Source: an uncultured Pelagibacteraceae bacterium (lineage in GTDB: Bacteria; Pseudomonadota; Alphaproteobacteria; Pelagibacterales; Pelagibacteraceae). Taken from it: DNA of 64,000 bases. Every line of letters starts with the position of its first letter. Within the stretch, counting starts at the first letter, position 1. The position numbers and the translations under genes were made by a program. The notes below the pieces were generated by a model. It was given only the letters and a program-made list of their open reading frames with translations, had not been told where the DNA came from and ran no database searches. This document shows positions 3,198 to 12,493 of this stretch, one piece after another. The stretch is from positions 1 to 64,000 of the forward strand of contig CACJNE010000005.1 of NCBI GenBank assembly GCA_902594675.1. The letters run 5' to 3'.

Positions 3198-4035
3198 TTA
3201 TAGCATAACCTAAATCATTTAAATCGTTTTGAAAAGAATTATTTAATTTAAACAAGATTTTTTTGGGTAAAATTTTTTGCCATCTATTATTAAAACCTAA
3301 ATTAAAAAAAGATTTTTTTTCTCCAGTATTAAGAGTAATACTTTCCTCAAATCCCTCCATTTTTTCCTTATTTTTTAGATTTACAAAATTTGTGGAATTA
3401 ATTGAATTAATTAATTTTTTTTCATTAATCGGATTTTTAATTGGTTTTAAACTTTCTATAAATGTAACAATTTTTTTGAATGTTTCAAATTTATTATGTT
3501 CTAAATCTTCATATTTAATAAAAAGAATTTTAAAATCCTTGCAGCTTTTCCAAGATTTATAATGATTAGACCATGAACCTAAAAAAGTAAAATTACTGTG
3601 ATCATTACCACTAGATTTTTGTAATAATTCAGCATTCTCATCAACTAATTTTGAATATGCATCATCATAACTTAATGAATAGTGATGTGTTAATGAAGTA
3701 ATTAGATTTCTTGGGTCTCTAACAATATATATTGCACCTAATGTCTCTTTATTAGTTGTGAAATTATTTCCTTCATATTGTTGTAAAGTATTATGTGTTT
3801 TTAAAAAGTGAATTTTGTCTCCAGAAAAAAATTCATTTTGATTAAAAACCCAACTTTGACTTGCTTCTTTTATAGAATGAATATTTTTTTTTGTAAATTT
3901 TACTGATGGAAATTGAAGTATTCTTAACAAAAGACTGAAATCAAATTTACCTTTTTTTGAATAATAGTAAGATGCTATGAAAGATCTTAAATATGTGTTT
4001 CCGCTTTTTGGGTATGAGGCTATCCATATTATCAT
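3190..4035 (-). CDS. Sulfotransferase family protein
   Basis: A 281-residue PAPS-dependent sulfotransferase-like protein. The N-terminal 5'-phosphosulfate loop SYPKSGNTYLR lies at residues 7-17. The 3'-phosphate-binding motif IVRDPRNLITSL is in the middle, and a basic Gly-rich segment lies near the C-terminus (LGFNNRWQKILPKK). These show the fold; the acceptor (cell-surface glycan or a small molecule) cannot be told. It closely resembles the protein at 37443-38300 and is probably a paralogue. It lies just downstream of the tRNA-Gly gene and outside the integrated element, so it belongs to the host chromosome. Confidence 0.85.
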   Translation of the reverse strand: MIIWIASYPKSGNTYLRSFIASYYYSKKGKFDFSLLLRILQFPSVKFTKKNIHSIKEASQSWVFNQNEFFSGDKIHFLKTHNTLQQYEGNNFTTNKETLGAIYIVRDPRNLITSLTHHYSLSYDDAYSKLVDENAELLQKSSGNDHSNFTFLGSWSNHYKSWKSCKDFKILFIKYEDLEHNKFETFKKIVTFIESLKPIKNPINEKKLINSINSTNFVNLKNKEKMEGFEESITLNTGEKKSFFNLGFNNRWQKILPKKILFKLNNSFQNDLNDLGYAINE

Positions 4036-4063
4036 AATGATTAGTGTTTCTATTATCTTAGTC

Positions 4064-4138
4064 TGGAGCGGGCAATGGGACTCGAACCCACGACCTTCTC
4101 GTTGGCAACGAGACGCTCTACCACTGAGCTATGCCCGC
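4064..4138 (-). tRNA. tRNA-Gly (anticodon GCC), intact copy at the left end of the element
   Basis: Read on the minus strand, all arms form. The acceptor stem is GCGGGCA with TGCCCGC, the D-stem GCTC with GAGC, and the anticodon stem TCTCG with CGAGA around the loop TTGCCAA. The T-stem GTGGG pairs with CCCAT around TTCGAGT, and CCA is encoded at 4064-4066. The anticodon is GCC. Bases 4085-4138, the 5' 54 nucleotides, are repeated exactly at 12440-12493, so this copy is a hybrid: its 3' end is continuous with host sequence and its 5' part was supplied by the element. The promoter upstream (from 4139) must therefore be element DNA. I see only a weak candidate -10 (TATAGG, minus strand, 4164-4169). 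Confidence 0.97.
4085..4138. repeat. Left attachment repeat (54 bp)
   Basis: Identical over all 54 bases to 12440-12493. It covers tRNA-Gly nucleotides 1-54, from the 5' end through the first two bases of the T-loop. The flanking bases differ on both sides (G versus T to the left, C versus T to the right), which sets the limits of the repeat. The strand-exchange point lies somewhere inside, most often within the anticodon stem-loop for this integrase family. Confidence 0.93.
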
Positions 4139-4249
4139 CTTTCTTAGTTAAACTCTTAATTACCCTATAATTTAGCAATAATAGGACAAATTAGTCTAAA
4201 TGTAATTAATCATGACTATTGATTTATTTCAAGGAATTTATGGATAAAC

Positions 4250-4270
4250 TACATCCCACATTGCGTCCCA
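4250..4270 (+). repeat. Left paired 9-bp repeats, candidate integrase arm sites
   Basis: TACATCCCA (4250-4258) and TGCGTCCCA (4262-4270) are repeated at a 12-bp step. The same pair, as two perfect TGCATCCCA copies with the same 12-bp step and orientation, lies just inside the right end at 12376-12396. Short paired repeats near both ends of an integrase element are what arm-type integrase-binding sites look like. Binding is inferred, not shown. Confidence 0.6.
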
Positions 4271-4436
4271 CTTGCTTAGAATATTTTATTCATGCAGTAC
4301 TAAGAGTCTAAAGTTTATCCAATGACTCTCTACGAGTCTCTATGGAATCTTAAACACTATGTTTAAGGGGTATGCAGGGTGCCCTAGGGGGTGTAGGTAT
4401 ACTATAGGTGCTTAAATTTTAAATTAGTAATTCAAT

Positions 4437-4512
4437 CTGTTAACCAGATTATATTCTAACTAAATTCCTAGGTTTATATCAGGAGTGTTAACCATAATAA
4501 TCTAGTTAACAG
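4437..4512. repeat. 16-bp inverted repeat with GTTAAC sites
   Basis: CTGTTAACCAGATTAT (4437-4452) and ATAATCTAGTTAACAG (4497-4512) are inverted repeats with one mismatch, 44 bp apart. A third GTTAAC lies between them at 4487-4492. The arrangement could be a regulator-binding pair, an origin feature or a long hairpin at the end of the polymerase-like gene. Confidence 0.6.
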
Positions 4513-4570
4513 TTTTGTTCTGAGTATAGATAGGGGTACCTTATACACCCTATAACATTGCCTGGAGATA

Positions 4571-5842
4571 CTACTTAATTAAAGGTATAGATGTAAACCT
4601 AGCTTCCTCAATAGCTTTACTCATAACATTCTTAATAAAGCTCTTATTCTTGTTCTCTACAATAAATGAGTCATGGATACTTAATACAGGTATTAATTCC
4701 CTATTACACTTACTAATAATATTGCTCGCTATCTCACTATCCTGAAACTGAAATTTTAGAGCAATCTGTTTGTAAATATAACCAGATATCTTAGGATTCA
4801 TCTCCTTAAATATATCTAATCTTTTCCGTATCTCTTTTTTGCTTGGTTTCTTACCAGATAACTTTCCTCTCTTATATTCTGAAACTAATGCGTGATTTAA
4901 ATTTTCAAAATCCCTGCAATTCAAAGCTATTTGTATTATTGCTTTATTAATCTTTCTTTCCGTGTCTTGAATTCCTCTCAATAAATAGGGATCCTCAGAA
5001 TAGGTATTCTCTTCAAAATAATTTAAACTCTCTGCACTATAAATTTGATGAATGATTAGGGAGGAGTAATCATATTCAACGGTTTTATTCTTATTAATAG
5101 TTATAAACTGTCTTAGCTCTGAAGGGATATTTAACCACCAAGGGCCATAAAATCTTCCTCCATGCTTAAAGTCTCCATTGAATATTCTTTGGTAACTTTT
5201 ATTTTTAAAATCAATAGTTTTATCTTTAAGGTATTCTTCGACCTGTTTATTTTTTAACACGCTTATCTTATTAAAACTTAAAATATTATTATAACTTAAG
5301 CATTCTCTTCTAATTTTATTGGTAAATCTATCCTCAGGATAATCTTTAAGTTGTTTATTGGAATTCCTAAGAACTATGACATCAGAATTTTTTTCCAAGA
5401 CATGCTCTTTTTTTAAATAGTGTTTCTTTAAGAAGTTTAAAAACTTAGGTGTTGGTCTAAATCTTGAACGATAGCTTAAGTTTTTATCATGTCTGACATA
5501 ACGTCCTTTTCTGTGATCTAAGAATTCATGCTTTATCAATAGCTCTATTATTTTCTTTATCTTTCTATTTGAAATTTTAAGGGGATTATATCTTTCTATA
5601 CTTTTATAAAGATTGTTATCCCTGGAATAAAAAACAAATTCACCTCTCTTGTTTAAATATAAGAGCATTAAATTAGCTGAAATACAGGCTAAATGATCTG
5701 AGTATTTTTTATGTTTATTACCTATTAAACCTAATTCTTCTGACAAATTGTAAAGAAAGCTATTAGGATGAGACTGGCTTGATAATGAAAGGTTAATATC
5801 GAACTTAATATCATTATTGTAGTTATAGATTTCAGGAGACAC
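4571..5842 (-). CDS. DNA polymerase family A-like palm protein of the element
   Basis: A 423-residue protein with weak but ordered signs of a family A polymerase palm. A GGRFYGPWW segment (228-236) precedes motif A-like VEYDYSSL (255-262, Asp258). A motif B-like helix ERKINKAIIQIALN (295-308) has the Arg and Lys placed as in the O-helix, and motif C-like SIHDSF (388-393) carries Asp391. The first 220 residues show no exonuclease motif I can recognise and may bind DNA. Proteins with this GGRFYG-WW and DYS-L pattern occur, as I recall, in other alphaproteobacterial genomic islands, mostly unnamed. It may copy or prime element DNA; activity is untested. It is transcribed away from the cargo operon. 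Confidence 0.65.
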   Translation of the reverse strand: MSPEIYNYNNDIKFDINLSLSSQSHPNSFLYNLSEELGLIGNKHKKYSDHLACISANLMLLYLNKRGEFVFYSRDNNLYKSIERYNPLKISNRKIKKIIELLIKHEFLDHRKGRYVRHDKNLSYRSRFRPTPKFLNFLKKHYLKKEHVLEKNSDVIVLRNSNKQLKDYPEDRFTNKIRRECLSYNNILSFNKISVLKNKQVEEYLKDKTIDFKNKSYQRIFNGDFKHGGRFYGPWWLNIPSELRQFITINKNKTVEYDYSSLIIHQIYSAESLNYFEENTYSEDPYLLRGIQDTERKINKAIIQIALNCRDFENLNHALVSEYKRGKLSGKKPSKKEIRKRLDIFKEMNPKISGYIYKQIALKFQFQDSEIASNIISKCNRELIPVLSIHDSFIVENKNKSFIKNVMSKAIEEARFTSIPLIK

Positions 5843-5971
5843 ATTGGAGAAATGGTAATTAAAACTAATAGTTCAATAATCTGGAAAAAATATTTTAAAG
5901 ATACCCACATACCACATACTACATAAAGGGATCCTACTGATTTAGGTGTATAGCAAGTCGAATAAAGACAA

Positions 5972-6025
5972 GACAATTGAAAATCGACTAGATATCATTC
6001 TTATTTGATAGAACTATTTAGGAGG
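5972..6025 (+). promoter_or_regulatory. Upstream region of the cargo operon with repeated motif and strong ribosome binding site
   Basis: The 12-base motif GACAATTGAAAA (5972-5983) recurs at 6265-6276, just before the second cargo gene. TTGAAA inside it could serve as a -35 box, but no clean -10 follows at the right distance. A perfect AGGAGG (6020-6025) stands four bases before the ATG at 6030; most genes in this window have much weaker sites. The role of the repeat is inferred. Confidence 0.4.
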
Positions 6026-6029
6026 AAAA

Positions 6030-6251
6030 ATGGATAGATATAAAAAATTTATTCTTACAATTATCGCAGTAGGAATAATCGGTATTAATATACAATTATT
6101 TAAAAATGATATTGTTTCAAATGCTAATGCTGAAGTTGCTGGAATGAATAGCATTGAGTTGAGGTTGGATTATGATTTTAAGAGCGCTGTAATGAGAATA
6201 GTTGAAGACTGTAAAGTTATTGGATCAAAAATAGATTGTTATGCATTTTAA
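6030..6251 (+). CDS. Small membrane-anchored or exported protein, first cargo gene
   Basis: A 73-residue protein I do not recognise. It has a basic start and a hydrophobic stretch at about residues 7-24, followed by SNANAEVAG, which could be a signal-peptidase site, so it may be exported or remain anchored. The mature part is about 40 residues with two cysteines close to the C-terminus (ending in DCYAF), which could form a disulfide. It has the best Shine-Dalgarno sequence of the element (AGGAGG), which supports it being translated, and it opens the rightward cargo run. Confidence 0.65.
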   Translation: MDRYKKFILTIIAVGIIGINIQLFKNDIVSNANAEVAGMNSIELRLDYDFKSAVMRIVEDCKVIGSKIDCYAF

Positions 6252-6300
6252 ACGACGAGTACAGGACAATTGAAAACTTTTTGGTACCATAAATAATTCA

Positions 6301-6504
6301 ATGGCTTGGTATAATATAAATTCTCAGGATAGCGTAACTGCGGAAACTTTAGAAAAAATCAGAACCGAAAGGTGTGGTTTCTGTGGACAAGAAAAACCAG
6401 TCAGAAAGAGAATGAAAATATATTTTTCAGAATTTGAAATAGCAGAAAAACCAGTATGTCGAGATTGCTATGTTCAGAACTCTAAGAAGGCTATAGCTAC
6501 TTAG
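6301..6504 (+). CDS. Small zinc-ribbon-like protein
   Basis: A 67-residue protein with two CxxC knuckles, CGFC at 25-28 and CRDC at 53-56, spaced as in a zinc ribbon or treble-clef finger. It is otherwise basic and lacks a signal peptide, so it is probably cytoplasmic and may bind nucleic acid or a protein partner. The 12-base motif GACAATTGAAAA lies 25 bases before its start, shared with the gene upstream. I do not recognise a named family. Confidence 0.6.
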   Translation: MAWYNINSQDSVTAETLEKIRTERCGFCGQEKPVRKRMKIYFSEFEIAEKPVCRDCYVQNSKKAIAT

Positions 6505-6534
6505 TTTTATTGGATATCATGAATAAATAGAGGC

Positions 6535-6567
6535 AGACTCATGGTTCAGGATTTGTTAATCTTGGAT
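6535..6567 (+). repeat. 33-bp leader repeat, copy 1
   Basis: 30 of 33 bases match 7899-7931. Both copies end at or within two bases of the start codon of a cargo gene. The shared core is GACTCATGGTTCAGGATTT, and the ATG inside it opens a short frame (MVQDL...). See the second copy and the finding on leader peptides. Confidence 0.85.
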
Positions 6568-6594
6568 GATGAAAACCGTTTACATCTTAACTAA
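6541..6594 (+). CDS. Candidate leader peptide MVQDLLILDDENRLHLN
   Basis: A 17-codon frame that begins in the leader repeat and runs over the start of the GIY-YIG gene in another frame. The matching frame in copy 2 also begins MVQDL and ends exactly at the next gene start. The shared first codons suggest a translated leader, but a DNA or RNA motif that happens to include ATG is equally possible. Confidence 0.3.
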   Translation: MVQDLLILDDENRLHLN

Positions 6595-7159
6595 TCAAGC
6601 AATGCCAGGAATTATTAAGATTGGTTTTACTGAAAACTCAGTAGAGCAACGAATGAGAGAACTGGATAAGACACCAACACCAATTCCTTTTGAGTGTTAT
6701 TATGCAAAAAGGATAGATAAAGCTGAGTTTGTTGAAAAGAAAATGCATGAAGCATTTGATGAATTTAGAATAAGGGATAATAGAGAATTTTTTAGAATGT
6801 CTCCAGAGCAAGCAAAAGCAGCACTGGATATTGCTGAAGGTGAAGATGTAACTCCAAGAGAGGACGTAGTTGAAACTACAAGTGATAAAACAGCATTAGA
6901 TAAAGAGAGAAATAGAAATCGATTTAATTTTGCACAAATAGGCATCGAAGTAGGTGAAGAATTAGAATTTAAAAAAGATAAAACAATAAAAGCTAAAGTT
7001 TTAGAAAATGATTTAATTGAATTTAAAGGAAGACCTATGTCTCTTTCACAATCGGCTTTAGAAATTGTACAAGAGATGGGCTACACATGGAATAAAATAG
7101 CAGGCCCTCAGTTTTGGATGTATAAAGGTAAAACGCTATACGAACTGAACAATCAATGA
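6566..7159 (+). CDS. GIY-YIG (T5orf172-type) nuclease domain with C-terminal RAMA/DUF4357-like domain
   Basis: A 197-residue protein. Residues 3-95 match the T5orf172 branch of the GIY-YIG fold: VYILTN replaces GIY, IKIGFT replaces YIG, then QRMREL supplies Arg, a VEKKMHEAF helix the catalytic Glu, and NREFF closes the domain. After a linker, residues 128-195 (GEELEF...KAKVLENDLIEFKGRPMSL...WMYKGKTLYEL) look like the RAMA or DUF4357 domain that accompanies restriction and methylation enzymes. It is probably a DNA-acting nuclease or modified-DNA reader. Starts at 6566 and 6569 are both possible. Its end overlaps the next gene by four bases. Confidence 0.75.
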   Translation: MMKTVYILTNQAMPGIIKIGFTENSVEQRMRELDKTPTPIPFECYYAKRIDKAEFVEKKMHEAFDEFRIRDNREFFRMSPEQAKAALDIAEGEDVTPREDVVETTSDKTALDKERNRNRFNFAQIGIEVGEELEFKKDKTIKAKVLENDLIEFKGRPMSLSQSALEIVQEMGYTWNKIAGPQFWMYKGKTLYELNNQ

Positions 7160-7347
7160 AAAAAAAACTAACTAAACTTCAAAAGGAATATAAAAATTAT
7201 AAAGATCCAAAAGATAGGCTATTACAAAAAATGAGAGAAAAGAAAGTTTATGGAACTTCAGATCTTAGGGGTGAGTATGTAAATTTATTTCCTCTAGTAG
7301 GAGTAATAGGGTTTGTAGCATTCATAATCTTTGTACTTATGAGTTAA
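7156..7347 (+). CDS. Small single-span membrane protein
   Basis: A 63-residue protein starting in the four-base overlap ATGA with the nuclease gene, so it is probably translationally coupled to it. The first 45 residues are strongly basic (KKKLTKLQKEYKNYK), followed by one hydrophobic span near the C-terminus (about 45-62). It may sit in the inner membrane with the basic part in the cytoplasm. No family is recognised. Confidence 0.6.
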   Translation: MKKKLTKLQKEYKNYKDPKDRLLQKMREKKVYGTSDLRGEYVNLFPLVGVIGFVAFIIFVLMS

Positions 7348-7358
7348 TTTAAATTTCT

Positions 7359-7874
7359 ATGAAAAAAATATACTCAATTATCATAATAACTTTATTTTAT
7401 TTCAGTGCAGTATCAGCTGATGAAGCTGAACAAAAAAGGATTTATGATGAATACAATCAAAAAATTCTTAATGCGGGCTTAGAAAAAAATGAGGAAAAAT
7501 ATAGAGAATTATGTGATCAATATGCCAAGGGTAAACTAGAAAATAAAATCGTTGGATTTCAAATGAAAGTATTTGATGGTATTCGATATAAAATGACGAA
7601 TAGTAATAACAGATTAGATTATAAATGTTCTGGTGTAGAAGATGGATTTTATTATGGTCCCGCAGTTTATGACCTTGTTACCGAAACCAATGATAAAGTA
7701 ATTGAACTTAGAGATGACGAAAGTCTTTCTGATGAGGAAAAGAGACAAAAAATAGTAAAAGTTTGCAAAGATTGGGATAATTATAACATCGAATTTTGGA
7801 ACTATGACGCCACCATGCTAAGAATTGGTGATGGTATAGATAGATTTTGTTTGCGTTATGAAGATTCAAAGTAA
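7359..7874 (+). CDS. Secreted protein of unknown function with four cysteines
   Basis: 171 residues with a clear signal peptide ending near SAVSA (about residue 20). The mature protein is charged and has four cysteines (LCDQY, KCSGV, VCKDW, FCLRY), which fits a periplasmic disulfide-bonded protein. Its first 30 coding bases match the PDZ gene at 7934 at 28 positions, though the mature parts are unrelated by eye. It lies in the cargo run between a membrane protein and the PDZ protein. No family is recognised. Confidence 0.65.
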   Translation: MKKIYSIIIITLFYFSAVSADEAEQKRIYDEYNQKILNAGLEKNEEKYRELCDQYAKGKLENKIVGFQMKVFDGIRYKMTNSNNRLDYKCSGVEDGFYYGPAVYDLVTETNDKVIELRDDESLSDEEKRQKIVKVCKDWDNYNIEFWNYDATMLRIGDGIDRFCLRYEDSK

Positions 7875-7898
7875 TAAATAGCCATTTTTAAAGCAAAT

Positions 7899-7931
7899 AG
7901 ACTCATGGTTCAGGATTTAGTAGTCTTGGAT
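7899..7931 (+). repeat. 33-bp leader repeat, copy 2
   Basis: 30 of 33 bases match 6535-6567. It sits directly before the PDZ gene (ATG at 7934). The internal ATG at 7905 starts the frame MVQDLVVLDQ, whose TGA overlaps the gene start as ATGA. Confidence 0.85.
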
Positions 7932-7937
7932 CAATGA
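7905..7937 (+). CDS. Candidate leader peptide MVQDLVVLDQ coupled to the PDZ gene
   Basis: A ten-codon frame inside the leader repeat. Its stop codon overlaps the start of the PDZ gene by four bases, the usual arrangement for translational coupling. The paralogous leader before the nuclease gene begins with the same MVQDL. Translation is not shown. Confidence 0.35.
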   Translation: MVQDLVVLDQ

Positions 7938-9661
7938 AAAAAATATATTCAATTATTATAATATGCTTATCGTGGAGTTTGCCTGTATCAGCATTTGTTA
8001 TTAATGATAAAGTTTATTTAAATGCATGCGGAAGCAATCCACAAGAATATAAAACAGAACCGTTAAATATACATAATGTAATAATAGAGGTTCCTAATAA
8101 AATAATTAGTTTAGAAAAAAGCAAGTATGATAGACCCATTCAAACTTTAGCGACTTCTTCACTAAGGTTTAATGATGAAAATTATCAGATAACTGTTTCC
8201 AATTTTAGAGATTTGGTAATTAAAAATGAAAGAAATGAAATTCTGGCTGAGAGAAAAATTACTGGAGCAAGCTCCATTTATGAAATTAAACATAAAGACA
8301 AAGTTGTTGCTTGGGGAGTTGGTTGGAATAAATTTTGCGGTGGCGGTTACTATGAGGATCTTATAGATTTTTCAGTTCTAAGAATTTTTACACCTACTTT
8401 AAAAAATAAAGAAACTGAAATTCAGCAAAAGGTTCTTGCAATAAATACAAGTAAAACTTATTCCTCACTTAAACCTTCAGAAAATTTTATTATTTCTGCT
8501 GCTGAAAAACTTTGGGGTTATAGAAATGCAGGGCTTTATAGAGATATTAATTTTTATGAACTAACTGAGAGTGATGGATTACAGTTTATTTTTCAATATG
8601 AAAATTTAATTGAGAAGGTAGATATATTTAAACTAAACCCACATGATACTGCTATTCAATTAGCAAAATATAGGCAACCTATAGCTCTTGAAAAATTTAC
8701 AAAAGATAATTTTGAAAAAATTCATAACGATATTAATTCAAGTTTAGATCTTATCAATTATGAGGAGAAATTGGAAAAAGTTAGAAAAACTTGTTTTAGT
8801 AACAAAGAATTTTCTTCTATAAATGAAATTGCAAAGAATTGTTATATGCTCTCAGATTGGATTGAAAATTCGCCCATATTAGGAGGAATGTTATTATACT
8901 ATTATGCAAATTTAGAAAATCCTAATAAAATTCTTCTTGGTAAGAGCAAAAGTGATATTGAAGATATTGTTAGTTTTGAGGTTCCCGATGTAAAAATTGA
9001 TTTATGGGACGAGGGTGAAAAAATATCCCTTAAGGAAGAAGTTTTAGCTTCAATTACTCATCCAGAAAACTTTCAATTAAAGAGAGTGAATAATGATTGG
9101 ACAACTTCTTTACAAGGATGCATGTATCAATACTGCTCAAATAAAGTCTTCCTCCTATTTGATATTGATGTAATAGGTTTAATTAGAACTAAAGATATTA
9201 ATGGAAATGAGGATTGGGTATTTTTTTCAAGATATTTTGATTCTTATTCAGATTTACCAAAAAACTTCTTTGATGAAGTTCTTACTTGGCAAAAAAAGGC
9301 TAGTGCATTTGAAAACGAAATAAAAACACCAAATAGAATTCGCTTTATAAATGATAACAAGATTGAAGAAATACAAAATTTTAATCCAGATACTCGTGGT
9401 AAACCTTGGATAGGAATAAGAATTCAAAATAATGACCAGGGTGTATTCATTCCCGTTGTTAGTAAAGGTAGTCCTGCTGAAAAATCTGGATTAATGAAAA
9501 AAGATATTATTATTGCATTTAACAATGAAGAGGTAAAAAATATCGATGATCTAGAAAGAATAAAATCTAATACTAAAATAGGTGATGAAATAACTCTAAA
9601 AATTATAAGGGATAAGGAGATAATTGAGAAGAAGTTAATTTTGGGTGATATGCCTAGGTAA
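7934..9661 (+). CDS. Secreted PDZ-domain protein of unknown function
   Basis: 575 residues. A signal peptide ends near LPVSA (about residue 20). Residues 21 to about 485 form a large periplasmic region I cannot place, with scattered cysteines including CMYQYCSN. The last 85 residues are a PDZ domain: GIRIQNNDQGVFIPVVSKGS, then PAEKSGLMKKDIIIAFNNEEV, the carboxylate-loop and hydrophobic-ligand pattern of HtrA- and Tsp-type PDZs. I see no GNSGG serine protease motif or other protease signature, so it is not an HtrA-type protease; it may be an adaptor or scaffold in the periplasm. It is the largest cargo gene and is preceded by the repeated leader. Confidence 0.7.
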   Translation: MKKIYSIIIICLSWSLPVSAFVINDKVYLNACGSNPQEYKTEPLNIHNVIIEVPNKIISLEKSKYDRPIQTLATSSLRFNDENYQITVSNFRDLVIKNERNEILAERKITGASSIYEIKHKDKVVAWGVGWNKFCGGGYYEDLIDFSVLRIFTPTLKNKETEIQQKVLAINTSKTYSSLKPSENFIISAAEKLWGYRNAGLYRDINFYELTESDGLQFIFQYENLIEKVDIFKLNPHDTAIQLAKYRQPIALEKFTKDNFEKIHNDINSSLDLINYEEKLEKVRKTCFSNKEFSSINEIAKNCYMLSDWIENSPILGGMLLYYYANLENPNKILLGKSKSDIEDIVSFEVPDVKIDLWDEGEKISLKEEVLASITHPENFQLKRVNNDWTTSLQGCMYQYCSNKVFLLFDIDVIGLIRTKDINGNEDWVFFSRYFDSYSDLPKNFFDEVLTWQKKASAFENEIKTPNRIRFINDNKIEEIQNFNPDTRGKPWIGIRIQNNDQGVFIPVVSKGSPAEKSGLMKKDIIIAFNNEEVKNIDDLERIKSNTKIGDEITLKIIRDKEIIEKKLILGDMPR

Positions 9662-9693
9662 TAAAAACATCTTCCTAACTATAGAATTTTAAA

Positions 9694-10140
9694 ATGAAAA
9701 AATTTTTTTTAATATTAATATTCAGTTTAATTTGCATTGGTTCGGCCTCTTCACAAGAAAGATTATCAGAGTGGGAAGGAAAATGTTTTATCCAATTTGA
9801 TGGAAAGGTTTTAATTGATGATGAAATTTGCAAAATGAGCTCTGATGATATGCCAATTGATAAGAAAGATGATTTTCTTGTTGTGGTTTCTAAACCTGTT
9901 TTATGTGACGATGGAAAAGAAGGTTGTTCATATTTCTTTTATGCCCAACAAGATAAATTTTTAGGCAAATATTTTTGGGTAGTTAATTTTAATGTAAAAA
10001 AAGATGTGAAAAAAGCTGTAATGCCTTTTCGACTAGCTGATATTGATTATTATGAACCTAAAGGCGGTGGATTTGGGGTGTGTTTTATAGATGGAGAAGA
10101 GCCAATTGCTTATGATAATAAATTTTGTTTTGAGTATTGA
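9694..10140 (+). CDS. Six-cysteine secreted protein, paralogue 1
   Basis: 148 residues with a signal peptide (cleavage near SASS, residue 20). Six cysteines at about 31, 46, 71, 78, 130 and 145 match those of the protein at 10640-11086 in order and local sequence: G-KCFIQ, E-C-MS, CDDG, CSYFFYA, CF and FC-E. This fits a periplasmic or extracellular protein with three disulfides. No named family is recognised. The two paralogues are separated by two small cytoplasmic-looking genes. Confidence 0.7.
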   Translation: MKKFFLILIFSLICIGSASSQERLSEWEGKCFIQFDGKVLIDDEICKMSSDDMPIDKKDDFLVVVSKPVLCDDGKEGCSYFFYAQQDKFLGKYFWVVNFNVKKDVKKAVMPFRLADIDYYEPKGGGFGVCFIDGEEPIAYDNKFCFEY

Positions 10141-10170
10141 AGAAGGATATTTAGAAAATTATTAGTTTTT

Positions 10171-10440
10171 ATGGAAAAAAAAAGACCGTTTCATGACTGG
10201 CCAAGTATGCCTGATAATTATATTGATCACCGAAAATTCGTTTACGATTTATGTAAAACAAAAGTGTCAAGACCATTTCATTCAACAGAATTTAATGTAA
10301 AAGAAGAAAAGTGGTCAGTAGTTCAATATCGAAATGTAAGACCACCTCGTATAGTTAATGTTTGGAATTTTAATAAAAAAGAAGAAGCAGAGTCTTTCAT
10401 GAAAAAAAATGAATTTATCTTAACAAAAAAACAAAATTGA
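10171..10440 (+). CDS. Small protein of unknown function
   Basis: An 89-residue protein with no signal peptide or membrane span, rich in aromatic and basic residues (RPFHDWPSMPDNY, VRPPRIVNVWNF). The next gene starts directly after its stop codon (TGA then ATG), which supports shared translation. I do not recognise a family. A phage-type DNA- or RNA-binding accessory protein is possible but not supported by a motif. Confidence 0.55.
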   Translation: MEKKRPFHDWPSMPDNYIDHRKFVYDLCKTKVSRPFHSTEFNVKEEKWSVVQYRNVRPPRIVNVWNFNKKEEAESFMKKNEFILTKKQN

Positions 10441-10635
10441 ATGAAAAAAAATGATTTTAAAATAGGGGGTAAATATTTAATACTCTATTCTCCCAGAATT
10501 AGTAGATACATGTGGTTTAGAGATATTGTCGTGACAGGAATAGAAGATAAAATAATTAAAGCTCATGACAGTTATAACAATAACGAAATTAGGTCTTTTG
10601 CTAAAAAATACATGACTGTGTTTAAAAAATACTGA
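10441..10635 (+). CDS. Small basic protein, possibly SH3-like fold
   Basis: A 64-residue protein that begins at the base after the stop of the upstream gene. The pattern FKIGGKYLILYSPR, then DIVVTGIEDKIIKAHDSYN, resembles small beta-barrel (SH3-like) modules that respond to or bind nucleic acid, but the match is only by eye. It is basic, has no signal peptide and no cysteines, and is probably cytoplasmic. Confidence 0.5.
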   Translation: MKKNDFKIGGKYLILYSPRISRYMWFRDIVVTGIEDKIIKAHDSYNNNEIRSFAKKYMTVFKKY

Positions 10636-10639
10636 GAAA

Positions 10640-11086
10640 ATGAAAAAACTTTTAGGTATCATGGTTCTGGGTTTGTTGTGGTTTATGCCAGTAAATGCAC
10701 AAAAAGAAGAGTTTGTAGCTCATGATGAGATCAACTGGACTGGGAAATGTTTTATTCAGTATGAGGGTAAAGTCGTAGTTGATAATGAGATGTGTACAAT
10801 GTCATTACAAGAGTACGGCAAGGAAAAAGATGAATTTACAATTATTGTTTCAAAAGAAGTTGACTGTGATGATGGAACAAAAAATTGCTCTTATTTTTTT
10901 TATGCACATAAAAACAAACTTTTAAAAACATATCTTTTTAATGTCTATTATAATGTTTGGAAAGATATGCCACAGGCTGGACAACGAATAAGTCCTGCTC
11001 AAATTGATGAATATTTTGTTGGGGGAATTGATGGAGCGTGTTTTCTCAAAGATAATCATAAATTTTGTTATGAGTTTAAAGAATGA
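10640..11086 (+). CDS. Six-cysteine secreted protein, paralogue 2
   Basis: 148 residues, the same length as the paralogue at 9694-10140. A signal peptide ends near PVNA (residue 20). Cysteines are at about 37, 52, 76, 83, 134 and 143. The shared segments GKCFIQYEGKVVVDNEMC, CDDGTKNCSYFFYA and KFCYEF align with the first copy, while the rest has diverged well, so the duplication is not recent. The end overlaps the next gene by four bases. It may act outside the cytoplasm, for example on the cell surface. Confidence 0.7.
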   Translation: MKKLLGIMVLGLLWFMPVNAQKEEFVAHDEINWTGKCFIQYEGKVVVDNEMCTMSLQEYGKEKDEFTIIVSKEVDCDDGTKNCSYFFYAHKNKLLKTYLFNVYYNVWKDMPQAGQRISPAQIDEYFVGGIDGACFLKDNHKFCYEFKE

Positions 11087-11379
11087 AAAATAAAAAGAAA
11101 AAAGTAAGAAGAAAAAAAGTAAAAAAAAATAAAAAAGCTGATTTTAAAGAATTTGCTAGAAAAGAAATAAATGATTTAAAATTTAGTGCAATTTTTTTTA
11201 TTATAATAGCTTTTATTATGAATCCCAGAGAAGATAGGATAGATGGAAGTTTTGAATGGATTACTTTTTCAATTGCATTATTTTTCATTGGTTTATTTTT
11301 TTGCCTTGGAGTTTACTATAAATTTAGAAATTGGATAAAATATCTTAAAGATGAAGACTATGAAAACTTAAATATTTGA
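11083..11379 (+). CDS. Small protein with very basic N-terminus and two membrane spans
   Basis: 98 residues. The first 25 are almost all Lys and Arg (KKKKVRRKKVKKNKK), followed by two hydrophobic spans at about 32-47 and 60-81. It begins in an ATGA overlap with the upstream six-cysteine gene, so the two are probably coupled. It is the last gene of the cargo run, 18 bases from the end of the converging integrase gene. No family is recognised. Confidence 0.6.
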   Translation: MKNKKKKVRRKKVKKNKKADFKEFARKEINDLKFSAIFFIIIAFIMNPREDRIDGSFEWITFSIALFFIGLFFCLGVYYKFRNWIKYLKDEDYENLNI

Positions 11380-11397
11380 TGACTATTAATATAAAAA

Positions 11398-12348
11398 TTA
11401 TACTAGCTTTTTAGCAACATCCTCTACCTTTAAATTATTATAAGTCCTGAGTAACATCCTTGGATCTGAATGACCTGCAATCATCATGGTTTCTGCAACA
11501 GATAATTTTTTATCTAACATAAAATTAGTTAAAGATTGCTTTCTTAAATCATGGAAGTGTGCATCTTCTATTCCATAATAATTACAAAGCTTTTTAAACT
11601 GTTTGCTCAAAGCATCACCTGTAATATTAAATGGTAGTTCAGCATTATTTAATAATGATATTGCCTTCAATGTTAAAGGAATAGTTCTTGATCTGGTTTT
11701 TGCAACTGGAATAAATAAAGTATTATTTCTTATATGTTCTCGTTTAACTCTCAATATTTCTCCTTGCCTCATTGCGGTCTCTAAAGCTATTTGAATAATG
11801 TCTCTAAGCAGAGGGGATGTTTTATTTCCATTAATGAGTTTTTTTAATTCATCTTTATTAAACCTTCTGTCCCTTGGTTCTGCTTTCTTAGGTCTTCTAA
11901 TTGAAAGAATTGGATTTTCTATTGGATAGCCCCATTCTTTTTTACATGTTGTAAATATTGTTGAGATTGCATCTAGAGCTCTATTCACACTACTGCCTGA
12001 AACTTTAATTAAATACTTATCTCTATATTTGCTGATAACTGCAGGAGTTATTTTGTTAATTGATTCTTCTGACCAACTCTCATTTAGTAATGCTAAGATA
12101 ATGTATCTCTCTTTAATGTAGGATTTTTTATAAGGAGACACTTCTTTAATATATCTGTGTGCTAGGTCTTTGAACTTGGGATATTTAATTTTTGATATTC
12201 CCAAATCATCCCTTCTTATTTTGCTTTCTATAGACAAAGCCCAAAGTTTTGCATCAGTTTTTGATACAAAGGATTTTGCAATTACTGGATGTCCTGTAAT
12301 TCTAATTATAGATTGCCATTTATTTCTATGTCGTCTTATGTAAGCCAT
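11398..12348 (-). CDS. Tyrosine recombinase / phage-type integrase
   Basis: 316 residues. The N-terminal part (MAYIRRHRNKWQSIIRITGH, then a SAM-like core-binding region) leads into a catalytic domain. Arg is in TAMRQGEILRVKREHI, HxxR in FHDLRKQSLTNF, His in MIAGHSD, and the nucleophilic Tyr in RTYNNLK, so all four key residues are present and it looks active. It sits at the right end of the element and reads inward, its start about 90 bases from the tRNA fragment, with the paired 9-bp repeats in between. It should integrate and, with a directionality factor not identified here, excise the element. Confidence 0.93.
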   Translation of the reverse strand: MAYIRRHRNKWQSIIRITGHPVIAKSFVSKTDAKLWALSIESKIRRDDLGISKIKYPKFKDLAHRYIKEVSPYKKSYIKERYIILALLNESWSEESINKITPAVISKYRDKYLIKVSGSSVNRALDAISTIFTTCKKEWGYPIENPILSIRRPKKAEPRDRRFNKDELKKLINGNKTSPLLRDIIQIALETAMRQGEILRVKREHIRNNTLFIPVAKTRSRTIPLTLKAISLLNNAELPFNITGDALSKQFKKLCNYYGIEDAHFHDLRKQSLTNFMLDKKLSVAETMMIAGHSDPRMLLRTYNNLKVEDVAKKLV

Positions 12349-12375
12349 GCGTTTTCCTTTCTATTAAGGACTAAC

Positions 12376-12396
12376 TGCATCCCACATTGCATCCCA
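12376..12396 (+). repeat. Right paired TGCATCCCA repeats, candidate integrase arm sites
   Basis: Two perfect TGCATCCCA copies (12376-12384 and 12388-12396) at a 12-bp step, in the same orientation as the imperfect pair at 4250-4270. They lie between the integrase start and the tRNA fragment. They could also serve as an operator for the integrase promoter. Confidence 0.65.
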
Positions 12397-12439
12397 GGTA
12401 ATTGATTGGAGATTTAAACTAGGTTTAGCAAGGCTAAAT

Positions 12440-12493
12440 AACCCACGACCTTCTCGTTGGCAACGAGACGCTCTACCACTGAGCTATGCCCGC
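12440..12493 (-). repeat. Right attachment repeat: 5' fragment of tRNA-Gly (pseudo-tRNA)
   Basis: 54 bases identical to the 5' part of the intact tRNA at 4064-4138. It stops after the first two T-loop bases, so it has no closed T-arm or 3' acceptor strand and cannot be a tRNA. The sequence to its right is host DNA and should hold the original tRNA promoter (candidate -10 TAATAC on the minus strand at 12514-12519), so the fragment may still be transcribed. Confidence 0.93.

Follow-up and report, generated by a model that had tools for sequence, protein, structure and literature searches.

What kind of enzyme is encoded by a short polymerase-like gene in a small mobile element of a SAR11-type bacterium, and what does the element need it for? 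The window, the 64,000-nucleotide stretch of DNA analysed here, is one contig of a 1.24-Mb SAR11-type genome. Its open reading frame at 4571–5842 (minus strand) starts with GTG, encodes 423 residues and lies between a tRNA-Gly gene (4064–4138) and a block of rightward genes. A preliminary description, made from the letters of the sequence, had read the product as a family A polymerase-like palm and suggested that it could be the element's own replication or priming enzyme; the positions given there for the reading frame and for residues D258 (in DYSSL), R296, K300 and D391 (in HDSF) are all correct.

The gene lies in an element integrated at tRNA-Gly

The element and its main features are as follows (three noncoding features are given further below).

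4085–12493: integrated mobile element, about 8.4 kb, with perfect 54-bp direct repeat ends and an empty site in a relative
4064–4138, minus strand: tRNA-Gly(gcc), the integration target, of which the 5' 54 nt (4085–4138) are one att copy
4571–5842, minus strand: predicted compact family A-like palm/fingers polymerase, 423 aa, with a winged-helix-like N-terminus and no exonuclease
6030–6251, plus strand: 73-aa small protein with a hydrophobic N-terminus, in module 4321–6575, conserved in L002 and L003
6301–6504, plus strand: 67-aa small protein with CGFCG/CRDC cysteine pairs, zinc-ribbon-like, in module 4321–6575, conserved in L002 and L003
6566–7159, plus strand: T5orf172 (GIY-YIG-like) protein, cargo, of candidate anti-phage family PDC-S57
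7934–9661, plus strand: 575-aa secreted-looking PDZ protein, cargo, common to the L002 and L003 elements
11398–12348, minus strand: tyrosine integrase, at the right end of the element
12440–12493, minus strand: second att copy, a 54-nt tRNA-Gly fragment at the far element end

In a relative of the same genus (locus L222, genome G005) tRNA-Gly sits directly between the two flanking genes, left and right, with no element present, and this empty site demonstrates the insertion directly. Integrase, tRNA-derived att repeats and empty site together mark a tRNA-integrated mobile element. The polymerase-like protein was found in one of 101 related genomes searched, that of the window itself, which is consistent with a sporadic mobile gene. 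The gene evolves under purifying selection, with a dN/dS of about 0.21 in comparisons with two relatives.

tRNA-integrating elements mostly use the 3' part of the tRNA. Here att comprises the 5' 54 nt of tRNA-Gly (4085–4138; 12440–12493), so the element sits on the promoter side and must provide the upstream region of the intact tRNA gene. Above threshold, an Rfam scan returned the tRNA and its fragment only, and no known RNA family in the noncoding region.

The T5orf172 protein matches PDC-S57 with an E of 1.1e-69 and is likely defence cargo of the element. Four secreted-looking proteins within 7359–11086 have alike signal-peptide starts (at 7359, 7934, 9694 and 10640). Two of their genes, 9694–10140 and 10640–11086, look paralogous (75% identity over a 60-nt stretch), and one of this pair, like the PDZ protein, is also present in the L002/L003 elements.

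The protein is predicted to have a family A-type palm and fingers

Pfam and NCBIfam scans of the 423-aa protein gave sub-threshold noise only, PDB sequence searches, whether run with the protein or a profile, brought no relevant match, and PF00476 matched neither this protein nor any of 13 family members. By profile it belongs to phrog_4756 (E = 4.7e-43; residues 44–412 on profile positions 55–425 of 440), which PHROGs annotates as function unknown; our literature searches found no paper that names the phrog_4756-type family.

The AlphaFold2 model of the protein, built with 37 homologues, has a pLDDT of 86.6 and a pTM of 0.79. Asp258 lies at the end of strand 252–259, Arg296, Lys300 and Asn308 all lie on helix 293–308, and His390-Asp391 occupy the turn of the 387–396 hairpin, so that motifs A, B and C follow one another as they do in family A. 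Foldseek ranks family A DNA polymerases in each of the ten top places among PDB entries (best E 8.6e-5, probability 1.0). With VIA-align, model residues 153–423 superimpose on the apicoplast polymerase with a Z of 13.8 and an rmsd of 4.2 Å over 246 residues; yeast mitochondrial RNAP (Z 13.2), T7 DNAP (13.0) and T7 RNAP (12.7) align over about 240–250 residues. A BFVD structural homologue, from Rheinheimera phage Barba31A, bears the name 'DNA polymerase'. The palm proposed from the sequence is thus borne out by a confident model with family A fold matches, AlphaFold2, Foldseek and VIA-align all agreeing with the palm and fingers of family A polymerases and single-subunit RNA polymerases (ssRNAPs).

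In a profile-profile alignment of the family with PolA (196 columns, score 41.8, E = 5.6e-4) all the motifs fall in register: GGR230 with GRL, NIP with NIP, DYS258 with DYS, Arg296-Lys300 with RR-K, and HDS391 with HDE. No control, whether reversed or one of ten with shuffled columns, scored above 15.8; the hhalign probability for the match is only about 30%. The corresponding comparison with T7-like RNAPs yielded a match confined to the short HDSF stretch of motif C, and by eye the likeness to T7 RNAP lies in the GRxY, HDSF and D-S patterns.

On the strength of fold and motifs, the protein is very probably a family A-type nucleotidyl transferase, in which Asp258 and Asp391 are predicted, from alignment register and secondary structure, to be placed as in a palm. 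It has no exonuclease domain, as the preliminary description had supposed, and only a short region at the place of the thumb, the core being about 270 residues; we know of no smaller natural family A-fold polymerase.

Residues 42–141 predicted alone adopt a winged-helix topology (pLDDT 77). Their top structural neighbours include PadR/LmrR- and MarR-type winged helices, with no significant Foldseek E, and since Z values of up to 6.6 are by themselves not significant, it is by topology that we call the N-terminus winged-helix-like. Among the larger members tested, no enzymatic domain was found in the C-terminal extensions, and only one showed an HTH, below threshold.

Conserved motif residues and an altered predicted active site

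Motif residues were counted in an alignment of 69 homologues (about 20–27% identity). Arg230, Arg244, Asp258 and Lys300 are each present in 69/69, Arg296 and Tyr286 in 68 and Asp284 in 67; among the 68 sequences ungapped at motif C, Asp391 is present in all, His390 in 67 and HDS in 60. Conservation of these residues is far beyond chance expectation, and the order of motifs A, B and C recognised earlier holds, with residues 258, 296/300 and 391 both conserved and in PolA register. The GGRFYG-WW segment (GGRFYGPWW, residues 228–236), which the preliminary description had singled out as a mark of unnamed proteins in alphaproteobacterial islands, stands in part: GGRFYGGWWQ is the consensus of the alphaproteobacterial homologues, but WW is not universal (W236 in 29/69).

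Two positions depart from the known enzymes. At Lys300+8, which we equate with Klenow Tyr766 and T7 RNAP Tyr639, 61 of the 69 sequences have Asn (Asn308 here), and the Gly that follows is replaced by Ala, Cys or Ser. The residue at Asp258+5, presumably the place of the DNA-polymerase steric-gate Glu710 and of T7 RNAP Gly542, is His in 53 of the 69 and Ile263 in the 423-aa protein; across the phrog_4756 family it is His, Gln, Asn or Ile, never Gly as in T7 RNAP. We draw these equivalences from the gap-free R-x3-K-x7-Y spacing and the Klenow and T7 numbering. With the O-helix Tyr changed to Asn and the steric-gate Glu to His or Ile, substrate choice, and even activity, is therefore uncertain.

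The same two changes could be taken to mean a catalytically dead palm that has become a DNA-binding or regulatory protein. We regard this as highly improbable, because a dead enzyme would not require an invariant Asp pair and Arg/Lys, and the metal-binding Asp pair and the O-helix Arg and Lys are essentially invariant across very divergent sequences.

With family A DNA polymerases (PolA, T7 gp5, apicoplast polymerase; PF00476) the protein has in common the palm/fingers fold, the motif A Asp, the O-helix Arg-x3-Lys, the motif C His-Asp, the GR and NIP signature and the Q-helix Gln. It differs in its roughly 270-residue core, reduced thumb, lack of an exonuclease, position below Pfam detection and extra winged-helix-like N-terminal domain. 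In the phrog_4756 family, moreover, the Glu of HDE is replaced by Ser, as the O-helix Tyr is by Asn and the steric-gate Glu by His or Ile; of the O-helix pattern R-x3-K-x7-Y-G the protein keeps R296 and K300, with Tyr and Gly replaced.

With ssRNAPs (T7 RNAP, mitochondrial RNAP; PF00940) it shares the fold, the HDSF motif C, GRxY at the DxxGR place and D-S in the helix ahead of motif C, but it is half as large, has no recognisable promoter-recognition domain, and has Ile263 and Asn308 instead of the ribose-gate Gly (Gly542) and the Tyr639 equivalent. None of the phrog_4756 family members scanned reached the PF00940 cut-off, sub-threshold matches (E of 0.15 and 0.011) being seen in members other than the 423-aa protein. 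As the protein lacks defining sequence features of PF00476 and likewise of PF00940, we assign it to neither family and treat it as a clade of its own, divergent within the family A/ssRNAP superfamily.

These comparisons bear on a doubtful alternative, that the protein is a compact ssRNAP that either primes replication of the element or, with the winged helix recognising a promoter, transcribes the element's genes. T7 RNAP and mitochondrial RNAP serve in both transcription and priming. HDSF is the motif C of T7 RNAP, GGRFY is similar to RGRVY of the DxxGR motif, as is Q..DS.I to SQDGSHL; the fold matches mitochondrial and T7 RNAP about as well as it does DNA polymerases, the DNA-polymerase steric-gate Glu is absent, and some family members match PF00940 weakly. 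Yet where T7 RNAP owes its open ribose site to a Gly, this family has His, Gln, Asn or Ile; PolA gives a stronger profile match than do T7 RNAPs, and a promoter-recognition domain of the ssRNAP type was not found. As to substrate, the bulky gate residue speaks for a preference for dNTPs, and the HDSF and GRxY features together with the missing Glu would leave use of rNTPs possible.

The gene recurs in alphaproteobacterial islands and in phages

The family was found in 22 of 289 sampled alphaproteobacterial genomes (about 8%); a phylum-wide sample of 299 genomes contained 16 carriers, 15 from alphaproteobacteria. phrog_4756-type relatives also occur in 54 phage records, mainly of large-genome Vibrio, Aeromonas and Pseudoalteromonas phages, on alphaproteobacterial plasmids and at 38 viral-contig loci; single-protein scans of viral contigs with the 423-aa protein and two phage homologues found nothing.

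An integrase lies near the gene at 13 of 18 loci in the alphaproteobacterial stretches, against 0.7 expected from the integrase counts per genome (P about 2e-15), and 10 of the 15 tRNA-bearing loci, the window and L003 included, have a perfect tRNA-derived direct repeat (17–59 bp) elsewhere in the stretch. The link drawn earlier between GGRFYG-WW proteins and alphaproteobacterial islands is upheld by this recurrence with tRNA genes and integrases. Among 20 other island proteins, Pfam identified restriction-modification proteins, SMC/AAA and OLD-like ATPases and a nuclease-related protein, besides one transposase and one protein of extensin-like type; most of the recognised cargo is thus of restriction-modification or defence-ATPase type. 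No other replication initiator, primase or replicative helicase was recognised in this set.

Some loci show the family in other states. In another tRNA-Gly element (L172) the homologue at 8297–9712 is broken by a stop codon, a decayed copy, and a second complete-looking tRNA-Gly lies at the far end. On Paracoccus versutus plasmid pBEN (L007) an integrase gene (3246–4460) is directly upstream of the full homologue, and a second, partial homologue (7–492) lies about 4 kb from it. Highly diverged relatives in two 1.4-Mb alphaproteobacterial genomes (L035 in G341, L036 in G108) match the profile in two separated pieces and may be a second branch of the family.

Linkage to integrases would also suit a gap-filling or repair polymerase that serves integration or excision and not replication, and small polymerases without an exonuclease are often repair enzymes. 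To our knowledge, however, tyrosine recombinases require no gap filling, and phage homologues stand at loci where no integrase was detected; we judge such a role very unlikely.

The family is present in one to three copies in each of 21 phage or viral records. A DNA polymerase A model matched elsewhere in 15 of these records (11 above the curated cut-off), one record has a family B polymerase and one its own primase/helicase. With a full-size PolA in most of the sampled phages, the compact protein would be a second, different enzyme there, not needed as the main replicase. In three phages its gene adjoins or is near a phrog_1967 DNA helicase gene. PF08275 had no match in the 21 records, but this model of DnaG-type primases misses primase-helicases of the phage type, and one of these does occur there, so we draw no conclusion from the negative result. 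Several phages (L006, L014, L015 and L016) have a small XRE/HTH gene just upstream of the polymerase-like gene, possibly its regulator.

Could the protein instead be cargo, an enzyme of defence or inter-phage competition that, for example, makes DNA or RNA upon infection? Many islands place the gene among defence cargo, one to three copies are present in lytic phages equipped with a replisome of their own, and the XRE/HTH gene precedes some phage copies. Against this, the polymerase-like protein has no PADLOC match, it recurs with an integrase whereas the cargo changes from island to island, and SAR11 elements keep it together with its flanking noncoding DNA at 94–98%. We consider the cargo reading unlikely.

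The polymerase gene travels with adjacent noncoding DNA

Three features lie between the tRNA and the gene.

4321–4570: noncoding region downstream of the polymerase gene, 250 bp, conserved in two relatives; candidate origin or att-arm region
4434–4515: 19-nt inverted repeat (arms 4434–4452 and 4497–4515) with GTTAAC cores; candidate binding sites
4438 and 4486: direct repeats TGTTAACCA in the same noncoding region; candidate binding sites

The polymerase gene, about 250 bp of noncoding DNA past its stop codon and the two small ORFs form a module (4321–6575) that is 95–98% identical in L002 and L003. The polymerase copies of two SAR11 single-cell genomes are 98% and 94% identical to that of the window. 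The L003 element uses tRNA-Met as its target, where it has a perfect 59-bp repeat; identity to the proteins of the window's element is 94% for the polymerase and only 27% for the integrase. Target and integrase have therefore been exchanged, and polymerase and adjacent noncoding DNA have been kept together. Between the window and L003, 4.4% of sites differ in 4321–4570, with synonymous divergence at about 13%; against L002 the divergence of the region is similar to the synonymous rate, which makes the argument for constraint only moderate.

The description of the gene's surroundings as structure-rich applies to one flank: 4139–4570 folds somewhat better than shuffles (z of -2.1 on the plus and -3.0 on the minus strand), whereas the other side (5843–6030) is ordinary (z of 0.18). 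A retron-like pairing of polymerase and template RNA, suggested by the structured noncoding DNA, was considered and set aside: the region abuts the att site, and modest z-scores can come from the inverted repeats of an origin or of att arms.

Proposed role

We lean towards a minimal family A-fold polymerase that is dedicated to replication or priming of the small tRNA-integrated element. This reading is based on its recurrence with integrases in islands that have no other recognised replication gene, on its being kept together with flanking noncoding DNA, and on its DNA-binding-like N-terminus.

From the observed fold, motifs, conservation, element borders and association with integrase and tRNA, we infer catalysis, origin binding and replication of the element by the compact polymerase, along the following lines. 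The integrase would excise an 8.4-kb circle by recombining the 54-bp tRNA-Gly repeats, and the N-terminal domain would bind the conserved noncoding region beside its own gene (candidate origin 4321–4570). In the palm, Asp258 and Asp391 would hold two metals; Lys300 and Arg296 would lie on a helix resembling the O-helix, and Arg230 would take the T/DxxGR position. The palm would then make the first template-directed strand or a primer, and replication proteins of the host or of a helper phage would finish the copying.

In most satellites and small integrative elements described so far, a Rep protein or a primase can be recognised. Like phage satellites and marine islands (PICMI, tycheposon, VEIME), the window's element is small and has att repeats, a tyrosine integrase, one replication-type gene and defence cargo; it differs from them in that this gene encodes a family A-like palm and not a known primase or Rep. 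The closest functional parallel that we know to be backed by evidence is offered by PICMI satellites, which require prim in order to replicate efficiently; the study assigns their replication to a primase and states that most known satellites have prim homologues (PMC10803314).

A more far-reaching proposal, which we offer tentatively and would not yet favour, is that the new clade, with Asn for the O-helix Tyr and His for the steric-gate Glu, combines origin-binding initiator, primase and polymerase in one protein. Its gene would then be the replication gene that defines an unnamed superfamily of alphaproteobacterial elements, small, integrated at tRNA genes and provided with defence cargo, those of SAR11 included, and would be shared with large marine phages.

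If the protein is indeed a compact family A-like replicase, it would explain how apparently replication-less islands copy themselves, and its family would provide a sequence marker for finding such islands. The unusual active site would be useful for understanding how the DNA and RNA polymerases of the superfamily diverged. SAR11 is among the most abundant bacterial groups in the sea, and a replicase of its mobile elements would give a handle on SAR11 gene flow.
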